This document shows positions 1,908-13,708 of a stretch of DNA of 28,233 nt, piece by piece. The stretch is from a virus. Position 1 is the stretch's first letter, and each line of letters starts with the position of its first letter. The stretch covers positions 1 through 28,233 of the IMG/VR virus record IMGVR_UViG_3300030430_003150; one strand, written 5' to 3'. The notes beneath the pieces were generated by a model. The model searched no databases. It had not been told where the DNA came from and saw only the letters and a program-made list of their open reading frames with translations. A program made the position numbers and the translations under genes.

Positions 1908-3389
1908 ATGAAAATAGTCGAGTTAATTTTAGATGATGAAAACGAAAATTTTGTCGAAGCGATAAGCGTAGTCGAGCATCCGGCCATTGAGGAGGATTTC
2001 GTTGCATTAAAAGACCAAAAGCAATTTAATTTTGCCAAGCAAGATGAGGAGAAACGTTTGCTTGTTGGTGCAATTTTAACGCCAAATAAACCGATATTTA
2101 GGCGTAATAATGATGAGGATTATTATATTTATTTTAATCGCGATACGGTACGCCAGGCAAGCCAATTATATTTAAAAAAGGGTTTTCAAGCATCGGCAAC
2201 ATTAGAACACCAACAAAACGTTAGCGGTTTAACATTGGTTGAGTCCTGGATAGTTGAGGACCCCAAAATGGATAAAACTAATTTGTACGGTATGGATTTG
2301 CCAAAGGGTACTTGGGCCGGTGCAATTAAAGTCGATAACGATGATATTTGGGATAATTTTGTTAAAACGGGCAAAGTAAAAGGCTTTTCAATTGAGGGTT
2401 ATTTTGTTGATCGTGCCGACGCCAAACAAAAAGAAACGGATGAGGATTTGGCTAACGAAATGTTAAACGAATTAAAACAAGCGCTTGAGGGAGTTGAATT
2501 AGAAACGTTCAACGATTACCCGGAAGCAGCCGTAAACAATGCAAAACGTGCAATAAAATACAAAGAGGAAAAAGGCAGCGATTGCGGGACGAGCGTTGGT
2601 TGGACAAGAGCCGGGCAACTTTCGAGAAAAGAAAATATCAGCCGTTCGACGATTGCTCGTATGGCAAGTTTTAAAAGGCACCAACAAAATAAGGACGTGC
2701 CGTATGATGAAGGTTGCGGCGGTTTAATGTGGGACGCTTGGGGCGGGAGCGCCGGAGTTGAGTGGGCAATAAAAAAATTAAAACAAATTGACAAAGAAAA
2801 ATTAGAATACATTGAGGTCGACGAAAATTACGCAATAATTAACGACCGATTGGCATACGCAACAAAAGAACAGGCAGAAAAAATCGCCAAGGATATTGGT
2901 TGCGAAGGGCATCACGTACATATTGAAAATGATAAGGAGTGGTTTATGCCGTGTAAACAACACGCGCTCGCAGAAATTGGACCACGTGGAGGCGTAAAAC
3001 GCAGCAAAAAAGCACCGGCAAGCGATACGCCAAATAAAAACCCAAAAGGCGAAGGCACCGCAAAAGGTGACGCGTCAACCGCCAGGGGTGCAAAGGTTAG
3101 TAAAAAGGACGAGGCAACACTACAAAAAAAGGTTGACGATTTTAACAAACGTTATAAAGATAAATTAGGTTACGGCGCAACGTTAGGCCAATTAAAAAGC
3201 GTGTTTCAGCGCGGCCTTGGTGCGTTTAATACCTCACACTCCCCAACGGTTAAAAGCGCCTCACAATGGGCATTTGCCAGGACCAACGCGTACCTTTATT
3301 TATTAAAAAATGGCAGACCGCAAAACGCGAAATATACAACCGATTACGATCTGTTGCCAAAAAAACACCCAAAATCAACTAAAAATTAA
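1908..3389 (+). CDS. XkdF-like prohead protease fused to three further modules
   Basis: Residues 1-165 resemble the XkdF/prohead serine protease family: VEHPAIEEDFVAL, a start LLVGAILTPNKPIFR, ATLEHQQNVSGLTLVESWIV and VKGFSIEGYF, with His/Ser candidates for catalysis. Residues about 205-300 form a second module with a CGTSVGWTRAGQLSRKENIS motif and DEGCGGLMWDAWGG. Residues about 300-355 are a small Cys/His-rich segment (GCEGHHVHI, then WFMPCKQH). The remainder carries GPRGGVKRSKKAPASDTPN and ends in YDLLPKKHPKS. The protease would mature the capsid; the roles of the other modules are unknown to me. It lies just after the tape measure gene and upstream of the scaffold and capsid genes, with a candidate late promoter directly in front. 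Protease call fairly sure. Confidence 0.8.
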   Translation: MKIVELILDDENENFVEAISVVEHPAIEEDFVALKDQKQFNFAKQDEEKRLLVGAILTPNKPIFRRNNDEDYYIYFNRDTVRQASQLYLKKGFQASATLEHQQNVSGLTLVESWIVEDPKMDKTNLYGMDLPKGTWAGAIKVDNDDIWDNFVKTGKVKGFSIEGYFVDRADAKQKETDEDLANEMLNELKQALEGVELETFNDYPEAAVNNAKRAIKYKEEKGSDCGTSVGWTRAGQLSRKENISRSTIARMASFKRHQQNKDVPYDEGCGGLMWDAWGGSAGVEWAIKKLKQIDKEKLEYIEVDENYAIINDRLAYATKEQAEKIAKDIGCEGHHVHIENDKEWFMPCKQHALAEIGPRGGVKRSKKAPASDTPNKNPKGEGTAKGDASTARGAKVSKKDEATLQKKVDDFNKRYKDKLGYGATLGQLKSVFQRGLGAFNTSHSPTVKSASQWAFARTNAYLYLLKNGRPQNAKYTTDYDLLPKKHPKSTKN

Positions 3390-3394
3390 TTAAA

Positions 3395-3688
3395 ATGAAA
3401 TTGTCGGAAAACACAAATGTAACACTTGACCTTAAAACAATTGGGATGATTATTGGTTTTACATTAATGTTGGCCGGCACGTATTGGAGTTTACAAGGTC
3501 AAATTAGTTTAGCAATGAGCGAACCCCAACCGGAGGTTAGTAAAATAGAATTTCAATACAAAGATGAATTGGTGCGCACAACAATTGAAAAAGTAGAAAA
3601 AGACGTCGTTAATATACAAGAGGATATTGATGAATTAAAAGAACAATTGGCAAAAATGGAGGAGCGCCTTTACAATAAATTAAGGTAA
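3395..3688 (+). CDS. Small membrane-anchored coiled-coil protein
   Basis: A 97-residue protein starting 5 bases after the protease gene. Residues about 15-36 (IGMIIGFTLMLAGTYWSL) are one transmembrane helix; after a short linker, residues about 50-95 are rich in Glu/Lys heptads and predict a coiled coil ending in EERLYNKLR. The topology (short N-terminus, one helix, charged helical tail) would fit a spanin-like or membrane-tethered assembly factor, but it is far from the lysis genes and no specific family is certain. Its stop overlaps the next start by one base (TAATG), so it is probably co-translated with the exported thioredoxin-like protein. Confidence 0.75.
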   Translation: MKLSENTNVTLDLKTIGMIIGFTLMLAGTYWSLQGQISLAMSEPQPEVSKIEFQYKDELVRTTIEKVEKDVVNIQEDIDELKEQLAKMEERLYNKLR

Positions 3689-4026
3689 TGTTTAAAACGT
3701 TTATATTATTGTTTTTATTTTGTGGTTTTGTTAATGCCCAAGATTATAAAAGTGATATAAGCGTTGTGCAGTATTCGGCAAGTTTTGTAAAAGATAACGA
3801 GTTGAATTTAAAAAAATTTAACGAGCATAATACATATTATTTTTACATTGAAACGGATAAAAAATTATTTGAAAACGACAAAATTAAGTATTTACCAACA
3901 ATTGTTATTTTTCAAAATGGTAAAGAAATTTTACGAATTGAGAGCGGGGTGAGTTTAAAACTCCCGGAGGATGCTGCAAAAAAAATAGATCGTAAATTAA
4001 ATGAATTATTACAAAATAAATTTTAA
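3688..4026 (+). CDS. Exported thioredoxin-like protein lacking the CxxC site
   Basis: A 112-residue protein with a clear signal peptide (residues 1-17, hydrophobic core ending VNAQ). The mature part reads as a small thioredoxin fold: a strand ISVVQYSASFV where thioredoxins have the WCxxC active site, a later strand with a YLPTIVIFQNGKEIL segment that matches the cis-proline loop and following strand, and a C-terminal helix. The active-site cysteines are absent, so redox catalysis is unlikely; binding or chaperone roles are more plausible. It sits between a membrane protein and a predicted outer-membrane protein, suggesting periplasmic action. The fold assignment is by pattern and the function is unknown. 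Confidence 0.72.
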   Translation: MFKTFILLFLFCGFVNAQDYKSDISVVQYSASFVKDNELNLKKFNEHNTYYFYIETDKKLFENDKIKYLPTIVIFQNGKEILRIESGVSLKLPEDAAKKIDRKLNELLQNKF

Positions 4027-4031
4027 AAAAT

Positions 4032-4157
4032 ATGATACGTTTATTAAAATACATAACAAAAAAATTAGAAGCCTTTAAGTGTTGGGTTCATATTAATTGG
4101 AATAACACACTCGAAAAATTAAAATCAAAATGTATATGCGAAAATTTGCCCTCATAA
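4032..4157 (+). CDS. Small hypothetical protein (41 aa)
   Basis: An ATG six bases after the previous stop opens a 41-residue frame, basic and with aromatic residues and Cys (FKCWVHINW, later CICEN), ending inside the next gene, which it overlaps by 28 bases. The tight packing (gap of 5 bases upstream) and full coverage of an otherwise empty stretch support it as a real gene. No family recognised; no signal peptide or membrane helix. Confidence 0.45.
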   Translation: MIRLLKYITKKLEAFKCWVHINWNNTLEKLKSKCICENLPS

Positions 4158-5212
4158 CCGCGTTATTATTTACAACAATTTGTAACGCTCAATTACTAAA
4201 AGAAATTTTTAAGTATTCAACTTTATACGGTTCATATACGGAGTCAAGCCCCTTATTTGTGCCGGATAGTTATTTTGTAACACAAGGCGGGGAGGTTATA
4301 AATACAACCCCGGAAGTAACAAACGATTTTAGTTATTCTTTTGGTATTCGCAAAATTGCGAGGTTTGGTTACGAAAATAAAGAAAACCGATTTTATGATG
4401 GCAGCGAACAAAACTCAAGTTTAAATAGTAATTTTGGGAATGTTAAAGGCCTGGAGTATTTGGTGCAATATACAAAGGGTAAACAACGCGGCCGTGAATT
4501 TGAAAGCGAACGTTACTTTTTAAGGTATTCGCGTAAATGGTGGAGTACTAAATTAGAAATACAAAAAAACGGTATTATTAATTTGAATTATAAAAGCGCT
4601 GATTTGCGTTTAAAAATACCAATTGGCAATAAATTTAATTTAAGTATTGGCGGCATTGTTAGAACACACAAACCTTACGGGTTTAACCCAATTGCAAATT
4701 ATTTAGAAACCTCGCCTTGGTGGGATTTGGCTTATGAATACGGTTATTATGATATTTATTACGGCATTGATTACGATAACGACGGGCAGTTAGATAACTT
4801 TGATTGGTATTGGGTAAATGAAAACGGGGACCGGGTTGCGGATACCGATCTGGATTTTAGGCGAAACATTTATCAAGATATTGTAAACGATTATAACCAA
4901 ACACAATTAAACAACATTGGAACGTTGGCAACGTTAAGTATTATTGCGGGTTCTGATTTTTATTATTACCGTGATAACTTTTGGTTGCATACTTGGGCCA
5001 ATATATTACCAAAACACAAACATATTAGCGGCGATAAAATTTACAGTTATAAAAATTATATTGGCTCGGATGATTGGGTTGATTATAATTACGGCGTGAT
5101 GTTTGGGTGGTTTATAACTAAAAAAATTGGTTTATTTACAGAAATTGAACAAACCCGGTTTTGGGATAAAAATTTACAATTCATAAAAGCCGGCGTAAAT
5201 ATACAAATATAA
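4130..5212 (+). CDS. Predicted outer-membrane beta-barrel protein encoded among structural genes
   Basis: A 360-residue protein with a typical signal peptide (MRKFALITALLFTTICNAQ). The second ATG (4136) gives the cleaner signal peptide and may be the true start. The mature part is rich in alternating aromatic/polar strands (YEYGYYDIYYGIDY, FFTEI-type ends) and finishes with a strand ending in a hydrophobic residue (FIKAGVNIQI), as outer-membrane barrels do. A DxDxDGxxD-like loop (YDNDGQLDNFDWYW) suggests calcium binding. No lipobox is seen. Location between protease and scaffold genes implies expression with the virion genes. Possible roles include altering the host surface (superinfection exclusion), assisting exit, or a virion component. 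I do not recognise a characterised family. Confidence 0.7.
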   Translation: MYMRKFALITALLFTTICNAQLLKEIFKYSTLYGSYTESSPLFVPDSYFVTQGGEVINTTPEVTNDFSYSFGIRKIARFGYENKENRFYDGSEQNSSLNSNFGNVKGLEYLVQYTKGKQRGREFESERYFLRYSRKWWSTKLEIQKNGIINLNYKSADLRLKIPIGNKFNLSIGGIVRTHKPYGFNPIANYLETSPWWDLAYEYGYYDIYYGIDYDNDGQLDNFDWYWVNENGDRVADTDLDFRRNIYQDIVNDYNQTQLNNIGTLATLSIIAGSDFYYYRDNFWLHTWANILPKHKHISGDKIYSYKNYIGSDDWVDYNYGVMFGWFITKKIGLFTEIEQTRFWDKNLQFIKAGVNIQI

Positions 5213-5361
5213 TGTACCGATATTTAAAAAATAAATTTTCATTTAAAACCCCGTCACGTTGCCGAGCGCAAAGCAAGCGCGCTTGTTTATGCCCAAACGG
5301 TACATACTCTCGTAAATGTTGTGACGGTTCATTACAGGCCCAAGGAATAGGCAAAATTTAA
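5212..5361 (+). CDS. Small Cys-rich protein (49 aa)
   Basis: The ATG overlaps the stop of the barrel gene by one base (TAATG). The 49-residue product is basic at the N-terminus and carries five cysteines in the pattern C-x7-C-x-C-x8-CC, with the core ACLCPNGTYSRKCCDGS followed by LQAQGIGKI. The spacing could hold a metal or two disulfides. I associate this short motif with many flavobacterial phage structural regions (recollection), where it lies near the capsid genes. It has no signal peptide, so a cytoplasmic zinc-binding knot is slightly more likely than disulfides. Function unknown. Confidence 0.65.
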   Translation: MYRYLKNKFSFKTPSRCRAQSKRACLCPNGTYSRKCCDGSLQAQGIGKI

Positions 5362-5425: not shown

Positions 5426-6001
5426 ATGAGTAACGCAATTGATACATTAAATAGGGTCAAGGCCGTATTGGGTCTTGAGGTAAAAATGGAGCAATTAAAA
5501 CTCGAAAACGGCACAATTCTCGAAGCAAACAAATTTGAGGAGTCGGAGTCGGTTTTTATTGTTACCGAGGATGAGAAAGTTGCGCTCCCAATTGGTTCTT
5601 ATCAACTTGAGGACAACAGAATTTTAACAGTCGAGGAAGAGGGCGTAATTGCAAAATTAGCCGACCACGAGGAAGAGGAGGAAGTTGAAAAAGAGGAAAA
5701 AGAAACCGAGGAAGTTGACGCGCAATATGTTAGTAAAGAAGAATTTTCACAAGCATTGGAAGAAATTAAAGCAATGATTGACGAAGTAAAAGCGGGTTAT
5801 AAAAAACTTGCAGAAAACAACGAAAATTTAGGATCTGAAAAAGCAGACGAAAAAGCAGAATTACAAGCAGAATTAAGCAAACCGGCAGTACAACCTTTTA
5901 AACACTCCCCGGAAAAAACGGCAAAAAGACAAGTCGTTCAATTCGCGGAAAGAAGGCCAAAAAATATGTTGGATATTGTATTTGAAAAATTAAATAATTA
6001 A
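5426..6001 (+). CDS. Capsid scaffolding protein
   Basis: A 191-residue, very acidic, helix-rich protein directly upstream of the major capsid gene (5-base gap), the usual place for the scaffold. The N-terminal third has short beta segments (MEQLKLENGTILEANKF, VALPIGSYQLEDNRIL). The middle is Glu-rich (EEEEEVEKEEKE) and then predicted coiled coil (residues about 105-150). The C-terminus is basic (KTAKRQVVQFAERRPKN) and ends with a short amphipathic helix, typical of scaffold tails that bind the coat protein. Assigned by position and composition more than by motif. Confidence 0.78.
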   Translation: MSNAIDTLNRVKAVLGLEVKMEQLKLENGTILEANKFEESESVFIVTEDEKVALPIGSYQLEDNRILTVEEEGVIAKLADHEEEEEVEKEEKETEEVDAQYVSKEEFSQALEEIKAMIDEVKAGYKKLAENNENLGSEKADEKAELQAELSKPAVQPFKHSPEKTAKRQVVQFAERRPKNMLDIVFEKLNN

Positions 6002-11977: not shown

Positions 11978-12097
11978 ATGGATAAACGAATAGAATTAAT
12001 CGCACAATTAGAAAACCTTTTAGAACACAAAGAGGACCTAACTGATGCAGAAATTAAAGATATAAACGAACAATTAGAAAATGCGAAAAATAACTAA
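11978..12097 (+). CDS. Small coiled-coil protein (39 aa)
   Basis: The ATG follows the fibre stop by one base; the 39-residue product (starting MDKRIELIAQLENLLEHK) is a continuous acidic amphipathic helix. It overlaps the endolysin start by 17 bases. Such very short helical genes between fibre and lysin are plausible fibre chaperones or trimerisation helpers, but that is a guess from position. Confidence 0.5.
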   Translation: MDKRIELIAQLENLLEHKEDLTDAEIKDINEQLENAKNN

Positions 12098-12524
12098 AAT
12101 TATTGTGCATTGTAGCGCAACAAGAGAAGGCAAAGATTATAGTGTTGAAACGATACGGCGTTGGCATTTAAAACGTGGTTGGCGTGATATTGGTTATCAT
12201 TTTGTTATACAAAACGATGAGGAGGGTACTATTAACGAAGGCCGCCCAATTGAACAAACCGGCGCGCACACTAAAGGCGAGAATTATTGCTCAATTGGTA
12301 TTTGTTATATTGGCGGGGTTGAGGCCCAACGTGACGAGCGTGGCAAATGGCCGGCAAAGGATACACGTACGCCGCAGCAAAAAGCATCGCTTGAGGAGTT
12401 GTTATGTAGTTTAAAAATACAATACCCGCAAGCCGTTATATACGGGCATCGTGATTTTAGTTCAAAGGCTTGCCCTTCATTTGACGCAAAAAGTGAGTAT
12501 GAGTGGATAAGCAACCAAATTTAA
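12081..12524 (+). CDS. Endolysin: N-acetylmuramoyl-L-alanine amidase (amidase_2, T7 lysozyme type)
   Basis: A 147-residue amidase that cuts the bond between muramic acid and the peptide stem. All key residues of the T7 lysozyme family are visible: zinc ligands His10 (VHCSAT), His123 (GHRDF) and Cys131 (KACPSFD), with catalytic Tyr39 (IGYHFVI) and Lys129. The length matches single-domain family members, and there is no signal peptide, so export depends on the holin encoded downstream. The lysis genes follow the fibre gene and precede the holin, with no intervening promoter seen. Confidence 0.95.
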   Translation: MRKITKIIVHCSATREGKDYSVETIRRWHLKRGWRDIGYHFVIQNDEEGTINEGRPIEQTGAHTKGENYCSIGICYIGGVEAQRDERGKWPAKDTRTPQQKASLEELLCSLKIQYPQAVIYGHRDFSSKACPSFDAKSEYEWISNQI

Positions 12525-12525
12525 A

Positions 12526-12651
12526 ATGCCTAAAAAATTTGTTTATACATACGTTAAAAAACAACATAAAAAACGACCCGGGGTTCATAGTAAAAACGCA
12601 AGCCGGGGACAAGTTAAATTCAAAAAAAAATATAGGGGACAAGGCAAATAA
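12526..12651 (+). CDS. Small very basic protein (41 aa)
   Basis: The ATG starts one base after the amidase stop. The 41-residue product is Lys/Arg-rich with the segment KKRPGVHSKNASRGQVKF and ends KYRGQGK. I associate the RPGVHSK...YRGQG pattern with small genes next to lysis or structural modules in Bacteroidota phages (recollection). The extreme basicity suggests RNA, DNA or anionic-envelope binding. Its stop overlaps the next start (TAATG). Confidence 0.62.
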   Translation: MPKKFVYTYVKKQHKKRPGVHSKNASRGQVKFKKKYRGQGK

Positions 12652-12782
12652 TGGAAACATTTAAACACTTAACGGGATTATGCGGCGAAACGCATCCCAA
12701 CATATATACGATATTATTTATATTAATTTTAGTTTTTACAATTTATATATTATACAAAAATGAGCGACAAAAAGAAATTTAA
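12651..12782 (+). CDS. Small single-span membrane protein of the lysis cluster (43 aa)
   Basis: A 43-residue protein with an N-terminal GLCGETHPNIYT segment and one strong transmembrane helix (about residues 18-35, ILFILILVFTIYIL), then a short charged tail. It overlaps the holin gene by 23 bases. Position between the endolysin and the holin suggests an accessory holin or antiholin; no sequence family confirms this. Confidence 0.58.
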   Translation: METFKHLTGLCGETHPNIYTILFILILVFTIYILYKNERQKEI

Positions 12783-13191
12783 GGATACAAAAGTTGGTAA
12801 ATTTTTATTGGGGACCGGATCTGAAATTGTAAACAACATTGGTGACGTGTTGCCGGATAAAGGTTTGTTAGGGGTTGTAAAAAACTTAATTGACAAAGAC
12901 CCCGTGTTGCCTGTTGAGGATAAAGAAAAGGCTCTAAAATTGTTGGAGTTGGACCGTGTTGAAATGGAGGAGGTTACTAAACGTTGGAGCGCGGATATGA
13001 GCGCAAGCGGTACATTTTTGACGAAAAACGTAAGGCCAATTACATTGTGTTTTTTTTCAATTGCATACGTGACGGGTTGGTTTTTAGAATACCCGCTTGA
13101 CAGTATTCAAGGAGTTTTATCGCTAATTGTTGGCGCATATTTTGGCTCGCGTGGAATTGAGAAAGTGATGGGGAATAATAGGCACAAATAA
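12760..13191 (+). CDS. Holin, 3TM gene-transfer-agent type
   Basis: A 143-residue protein. The soluble N-terminal half contains KEKALKLLELDRVEMEEV and the ADMSASGTFLTKNVRPITL junction, typical of the GTA-type holin family, followed by hydrophobic helices (ITLCFFSIAYVTGWFL and GVLSLIVGAYFGS) and the end SRGIEKVMG. It would release the cytoplasmic amidase through the inner membrane. It closes the late lysis block; downstream is a 120-base AT-rich spacer. The family call is by motif and context. Confidence 0.82.
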   Translation: MSDKKKFKDTKVGKFLLGTGSEIVNNIGDVLPDKGLLGVVKNLIDKDPVLPVEDKEKALKLLELDRVEMEEVTKRWSADMSASGTFLTKNVRPITLCFFSIAYVTGWFLEYPLDSIQGVLSLIVGAYFGSRGIEKVMGNNRHK

Positions 13192-13315: not shown

Positions 13316-13708
13316 ATGCCAAAAAAAACAACAAGAAGCAAACTTGTAAAAAAAGCCGATGCCGTATTTTCTGAATATATAAGGCGGCGTTTTGCAGATC
13401 GTAACGGGATAACCGAATGTTGTACTTGTGGCAAAAAAGACCATTGGAAAAAATTACAATGCGGGCATTTTCAGTCGCGCCGGTTTTATTCAACGCGTTG
13501 GGACGAGCAAAATTGCGCCGTACAATGTAGCGGGTGCAATGTTTTTAAATACGGCGAGCAATACAAATTTAGTATTTATATTGACCAAAAATACGGACCC
13601 GGCACAAGCGAGGGTTTACTAAAAAAAGCAAACAAAATTTATAAATTGTCTAATTATGATATTCAAGAAATAATTGAGTATTATAAAGCCGAATTGTCAA
13701 AATTTTAG
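13316..13708 (+). CDS. NinG/Rap-like recombination endonuclease
   Basis: A 130-residue protein with the zinc-finger and core layout of lambda NinG (Rap): CCTCGKKDHWKKLQCGHFQS, then FYSTRWDEQNCAVQCSGCN (about residues 35-75), and a C-terminal helix with GTSEGLLKKANKIYK. NinG-type nucleases act at recombination and branched-DNA structures. Unlike the other genes here it has a true Shine-Dalgarno sequence (GGAGGG, 13304-13309) six bases before the ATG, which fixes the start. Two hairpin terminators follow, so it may be transcribed separately or as the tail of the late block. Confidence 0.85.
   Translation: MPKKTTRSKLVKKADAVFSEYIRRRFADRNGITECCTCGKKDHWKKLQCGHFQSRRFYSTRWDEQNCAVQCSGCNVFKYGEQYKFSIYIDQKYGPGTSEGLLKKANKIYKLSNYDIQEIIEYYKAELSKF

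Follow-up and report, generated by a model that had tools for sequence, protein, structure and literature searches.

A phage gene trio of inner-membrane coiled coil, redox-dead thioredoxin and outer-membrane barrel as a candidate spanin-like complex without a lipoprotein

Three adjoining phage genes, coding for a putative inner-membrane coiled-coil protein (TMCC), an exported thioredoxin-fold protein (TRX) and a predicted outer-membrane beta-barrel (BARREL), constitute a conserved unit that may operate as a spanin-like, lipoprotein-free complex for the disruption of the outer membrane at lysis. A spanin-like machine is the simplest account of the trio because its members would occupy three compartments, the other two constantly co-occur with the barrel, endolysin and holin genes usually lie close by and a spanin gene is mostly missing. 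Judged from sequence, the chances of this reading are evenly balanced, because u-spanin-like genes exist in three clades, some copies are displaced and there are phages with neither the trio nor an evident spanin. The broader proposal is more tentative and falls somewhat short of even: that a three-part machine of coiled coil, dead thioredoxin and integral barrel, with no lipoprotein, represents a third class of phage outer-membrane-disruption system in hundreds of uncultured, probably Bacteroidota-infecting and mostly spanin-less phages. How spanin-less phages pass the outer membrane is an open question in the spanin literature, with Bacteroidota phages among the cases (PMC6139136). The trio provides a concrete and testable candidate with hundreds of homologues, and, if the reading is true, an adaptor together with an integral barrel can replace the lipoprotein in the task that spanins perform.

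The unit was analysed in a virus record of 28,233 bases (the window, by which we mean this whole stretch of DNA), with no bacterial genome around it. On its plus strand, genes for the head, the tail and lysis follow one another at short distances as far as about position 13,700 (Table 1), and no RNA elements or tRNAs were found. The original prediction had described TRX and BARREL as an exported pair with a 41-residue gene between them, and all these reading frames are indeed present. Its placement of the pair between protease and scaffold genes was also correct, the scaffold match being a weak one; the same PHROG spans both the protease N-terminus and the scaffold. TMCC had been overlooked and is the third partner of the same unit, its stop codon overlapping the start of TRX. 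The window endolysin is encoded on the same strand as the trio, about 7 kb downstream. The extra domains of the protease reading frame are DUF3721 and DUF5824.

Table 1. Trio genes and neighbouring features of the window
Feature	Position	Strand	Description
Protease ORF	1908..3389	+	S78_2 maturation protease, then extra domains
TMCC	3395..3688	+	97-aa putative inner-membrane anchor with coiled coil
TRX	3688..4026	+	112-aa exported thioredoxin fold without CxxC
41-aa ORF	4032..4157	+	Cationic, amphipathic, Cys-containing
BARREL	4130..5212	+	360-aa exported, predicted 12-strand outer-membrane barrel
Scaffold-like protein	5426..6001	+	phrog_24921 E 2e-5; synteny with P12024L
Endolysin, N-acetylmuramoyl-L-alanine amidase (Amidase_2)	12081..12524	+	E 9e-13
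3-TM holin-like protein	12760..13191	+	Homologous to the holin after the endolysin in trio phages and P12024L

The thioredoxin-like nature attributed to TRX was corroborated by several comparisons. The family profile matches thioredoxins of the PDB (E 7e-9), PF00085 is matched by 61 of 67 homologues at E<=0.1 (best 1e-8), and the structure model (pLDDT 87) resembles thioredoxins with Z about 11. The signal peptide that had been predicted is present; it is hydrophobic and ends in VNA/Q. The combination of a cis-Pro loop with the absence of CxxC, described at first for the window, extends to the whole family, where P70 is kept in 67/67 members and CxxC appears in 0/67. With thioredoxins and periplasmic thioredoxin-fold proteins (PF00085, PF13098) TRX shares the fold, the cis-Pro loop and a conserved aromatic residue preceding the now lost active site; unlike in thioredoxins, the CGPC positions are replaced, by V-K-D-N in the window according to our alignment. 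On these sequences, classic redox catalysis by TRX is excluded. The earlier idea that TRX and BARREL form a chaperone-client pair obtained no support, because TRX has lost its redox residues and the protein that constantly accompanies the pair is TMCC, at the inner membrane.

BARREL starts with the anticipated signal peptide, hydrophobic and ending in CNA/Q, and a reliable structure model (pLDDT 86) contains the barrel that had been set as the check, with 12 long strands; these predicted strands and the export signal would place it in the outer-membrane beta-barrel fold class. Its best PDB matches are outer-membrane barrels, namely TamA (Z 11.2), CymA and OmpG, with NanC also among the neighbours, and one clear viral match, A0A516LKJ4, was obtained in BFVD (TM 0.76, 29% identity). 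Any one family of Pfam, PHROGs or NCBIfam accounts for at most 3 of 67 members, and annotation missed BARREL because of this void in three libraries and of the lack of a GenBank phage match. Like the phage-encoded outer-membrane proteins of Lom/Ail type and the porin-like ones in BFVD, it would be a phage-encoded outer-membrane barrel; unlike them, it belongs to another family and has 12 strands, a long plug or loop and two obligate partners. Two long conserved stretches stand out in the model, a loop or plug at residues 181-265 and a turn at 76-106 that would be periplasmic if the N-terminus is. This turn, which includes the low-confidence segments 79-86 and 91-94, is conserved about as strongly as the strands and is a possible docking site. 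The acidic DxDxDGxxD loop remarked in BARREL is present in the window as DxDxDG, but it is not a defining feature of the family because only 16/67 members carry it; its candidacy as a calcium-binding functional hallmark was rejected on the same count.

Membrane topologies were drawn from hydropathy. In the window, a single N-terminal transmembrane segment covers about residues 17-33 of TMCC, and the C-terminal part shows the heptads of a coiled coil (I64 V67 V71 I74 I78 L81 L85 M88 L92). The hydrophobic segment is present in 52/52 family members, followed by a median of 66 residues with regular heptads, and differences in length within the family consist of 7-residue gaps, one heptad each. The N-in/C-out orientation is assumed, and net charges fit no single orientation clearly.

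Homologues were collected from IMG/VR metagenomic contigs, mostly fragments, and frequencies describe the best 80 per list. The scans recovered at least 113 non-redundant loci with at least one trio gene, a later one added at least 80 further loci that partially overlap the first set, and at least 593 barrel loci were counted in one scan. Among the matches listed, TRX and TMCC are encoded in all barrel loci flanked on both sides, 42/42 in the first scan and 56/56 in the second (98/98 together); L066 and L168, considered as barrel loci devoid of TMCC, proved to be gene-calling misses. The order TMCC-TRX-BARREL prevails in the first set and BARREL-TMCC-TRX in the second. Within each locus the trio genes share one strand and are mostly separated by a few nucleotides, with a median of -4 nt between TMCC and TRX. 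Some loci (L198, L225 and those of CTBCT order) contain duplicated TMCC, and TRX, in certain cases on both sides of one barrel gene. Occurrence of the trio is nested, TMCC being found alone, with TRX but without detectable BARREL, or with both, as would suit a chain that starts from an inner-membrane anchor. Pairwise divergence is correlated between TMCC and TRX (0.52), TRX and BARREL (0.46), and TMCC and BARREL (0.35), the best of 300 random pairings reaching 0.15, and this ranking, with TMCC-BARREL lowest, is the one expected if TRX is the middle link. The measure is supportive rather than decisive because BARREL correlates also with the M15 endolysin (0.43; TRX 0.22, TMCC 0.06). Compensation between TMCC and TRX lengths is weak (rho -0.27, p 0.009, uncorrected for kinship).

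Bacteroidetes follow a Q-rule for signal peptidase I substrates (PMC5837995). A cleavage site of the form x-[small]-Q was detected in 94/110 TRX and 95/101 BARREL homologues compared with 12% of other genes. These Q-rule sites therefore support export and a Bacteroidota host, and the sequences indicate that the hosts of trio phages are probably Bacteroidota. Among bacterial genomes, one homologue (L235) resides on a contig of a Bacteroidetes MAG, and the other match (L236) on a contig binned as an alphaproteobacterium. No cultured phage with the trio was found by tblastn of three barrel subfamilies, one TRX and one TMCC against 50,697 GenBank phage records, a search that equally did not bear out the suggested occurrence of such genes in flavobacterial phages. 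A 105-kb trio phage record (L009) additionally encodes GroEL and GroES homologues, named by eye, at 238-1851 and 2004-2261.

The commonest neighbours of the trio are lysis genes. Among 112 non-redundant loci, these are an M15 peptidase in 50, a homologue of the 3-TM holin, at most 5 genes away, in 46 and an Amidase_2 endolysin in 16. To avoid the bias of a near-trio search, hydrolases and TRX were mapped on 50 whole records, 41 of them with a hydrolase. In 34/41 a hydrolase lies within 3 kb of TRX, whereas uniform placement would give 6.3 (naive tail 6e-22, uncorrected for kinship), a proximity seen with M15 peptidases (27/30) as well as amidases (7/11) and in both gene orders. The trio family thus occupies the location that is usual, if not universal, for spanins. 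The window and some 12 related loci have the trio surrounded by structural genes; where the distance to the endolysin is known, it amounts to roughly 7-20 kb. The virion operon originally described is thus real in the window and a few relatives, but it is not the usual setting of the family. Remodelling of the envelope before lysis comes closest of the three functions first suggested, because homologues sit in lysis modules. Nonlabens phage P12024L, the closest cultured phage when major capsid and protease are compared, has the protease N-terminal part and the scaffold as one 349-aa protein directly followed by the capsid gene, and the window cassette therefore stands in a gap that is absent from P12024L. 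Neither TRX nor BARREL was found in this phage, which has an 88-aa gene of transmembrane-plus-coiled-coil type directly before its M15 endolysin, weakly matched by the TMCC profile (E 0.01). A 118-136-aa gene with two transmembrane segments and a coiled coil occurs slightly upstream of endolysin/holin in L256, L260, L262, L287 and L306, which have the same holin family and no trio; comparison of L306 with L303 looks like a replacement of TMCC and TRX.

With the two-component spanins (lambda Rz/Rz1, T4 PseT.3/PseT.2) the trio would share an inner-membrane coiled coil exposed to the periplasm, a second component in the outer membrane, overlapping or nearly overlapping genes and the usual place beside endolysin and holin. 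It differs from them in that the outer component is an integral barrel and not a lipoprotein, and in that a third, soluble thioredoxin-fold protein always accompanies the barrel; no sequence relation was found. Spanins commonly contain cysteines, whereas TMCC and BARREL have almost none, which argues against a spanin-like reading. Unimolecular spanins (T1 gp11 type) would have the same job, and a lipoprotein of this kind stands beside the trio in three clades; the three trio proteins themselves have no lipobox or C-terminal transmembrane segment, and BARREL carries a signal peptidase I site and not the lipobox of an o-spanin. Because the lipoprotein feature is missing, the trio is not a spanin by definition, yet it may still work like one. 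In a survey, no spanin was recognised in about 13% of phages, two Croceibacter phages and one Bacteroides phage among them, and an outer-membrane protein was named as a possible o-spanin (PMC6139136). According to a later survey, the unimolecular type is the sole kind of spanin in Bacteroidetes phages (PMC12596118).

In agreement with a lipoprotein-free arrangement, most trio phages checked have no spanin-like lipoprotein gene near the trio. Within 8 genes of it, three clades (L005/L006, L053 and L159) encode a lipobox protein with a C-terminal transmembrane segment, that is, of u-spanin topology, which follows the barrel directly or lies close to it, and a few others a lipoprotein without such a segment. 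The u-spanin-like family is present in 2/50 trio records and had no tblastn match in GenBank phages. When ten phage records and the window were scanned for lipoboxes in six frames, one clear lipoprotein gene emerged, in G012, the rest being weak or short, with no convincing lipoprotein on the coding strand of the window. Embedded o-spanin-like lipoprotein frames, such as a 51-aa frame at 4944-5099 of the window, were discarded as candidates since they are not conserved (4/101 BARREL, 2/110 TRX and 1/108 TMCC genes); so few carriers suggest that they probably arose by chance. Lipoproteins of the type ITHVLAxTxxGDT..., without C-terminal transmembrane segment, adjoin the M15 endolysin or the holin in L250, L253, L156, L075, L200, L204 and L236 and appear once inside the trio (L046); they are possible outer-membrane partners.

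The proposed mechanism, for which we infer membrane orientation, physical contact, chain order and outer-membrane disruption with its mode of action, would be as follows. The three proteins would be expressed late and form one complex spanning the envelope. TMCC would be anchored in the inner membrane with its coiled coil in the periplasm, TRX, its redox chemistry lost, would serve as periplasmic adaptor, and BARREL would dock to it from the outer membrane, possibly via the flexible turn 76-106. After the inner membrane and the peptidoglycan have ceased to be barriers through the action of holin and endolysin, the connected proteins could break the outer membrane by spanin-like pulling of the membranes or by distortion of the barrel, and would thereby replace a spanin with no lipoprotein involved. 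Several observations speak against this scheme. In the three clades mentioned above a gene of u-spanin topology coexists with the trio, some trios are far from lysis genes, and an evident spanin is often missing also from phages that have this holin and endolysin but not the trio, so that the absence of a spanin is not diagnostic. Moreover, a periplasmic part of about 62 residues in TMCC plus one thioredoxin domain would make a short bridge across the periplasm.

An alternative that we consider unlikely, though with some claim to be true, is that the unit senses the timing of lysis. TMCC would be holin- or antiholin-like, with TRX binding its periplasmic part, and BARREL would relay a surface signal, e.g. 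the adsorption of another phage, that delays or triggers lysis, comparable to T4 RI acting on holin T. Weak matches of some TMCC members to small holin or holin/antiholin PHROGs and the location with holin and endolysin are consistent with it, as is the presence of TMCC alone beside these genes, expected if TMCC acts as effector and was joined by TRX and BARREL only later. However, the holin match of the window TMCC is weak and covers the coiled coil alone, many of the same loci have a separate 3-TM holin, no sensory domain is evident, and loop L4, maybe facing outwards, is conserved about like many strands. Next comes superinfection exclusion or receptor masking, in which a barrel made late and its partners would block the receptor or the passage of the DNA of competing phages. 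Phages are known to encode outer-membrane barrels and to carry moron genes close to their lysis genes, Lom and Bor of lambda being examples, and the unit moves as a cassette among genome positions. This explanation is nonetheless improbable: the unit tracks the lysis module across phages with unrelated hydrolases, and exclusion genes usually act alone. Membership of the trio in a defence system was rejected for want of a PADLOC match, which is weak evidence against exclusion. It is still harder to credit that BARREL is an accessory pore that weakens or permeabilises the outer membrane in the course of lysis, uptake or release, TRX and TMCC being its assembly factors. The closest structures are those of pores and assembly barrels (OmpG, CymA, NanC, TamA) and the u-spanin-like gene coexisting in three clades would fit a helper role, but a lasting complex is suggested by the strict co-occurrence of the three genes and their correlated divergence, and TRX and TMCC do not exist only for barrel assembly because both occur without the barrel. 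Finally, a virion or tail component or assembly chaperone, as the place between protease and scaffold in the window and between minor structural genes in 12 related loci could suggest, is very improbable, since cleavable Q-rule signal peptides would take TRX and BARREL out of the cytoplasm where virions are assembled, the unit lies elsewhere in most relatives, and P12024L has its fused protease-scaffold without the cassette.

Several small proteins were also observed. The 41-residue gene between TRX and BARREL is real, as had been proposed, and is not a constant member of the unit. It belongs with 41-42-aa cationic Trp/Cys peptides with a KCxCE-like tail (L041_11 and L261_7), whose genes in L041 and L261 adjoin amidase endolysins, one of the two phages having no detected trio; a small lysis peptide is a possible function. 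Disruptins are small cationic phage peptides that lyse the outer membrane. The 41-aa product is similarly small, cationic and amphipathic with relatives beside amidases, differing in its inconstant association with the trio. Beside the holin, the window encodes at 12526-12651 a conserved basic protein of 41-45 aa with the end YRGQGR/K (family f5), found at this place in many phages. Lastly, a 49-aa reading frame at 5212-5361 has a conserved Cys-rich tail (CLC.NG.YSRKCCDGSLQAQGIG.I), and its family, of which L058_15 is a member, recurs in several other trio phages.
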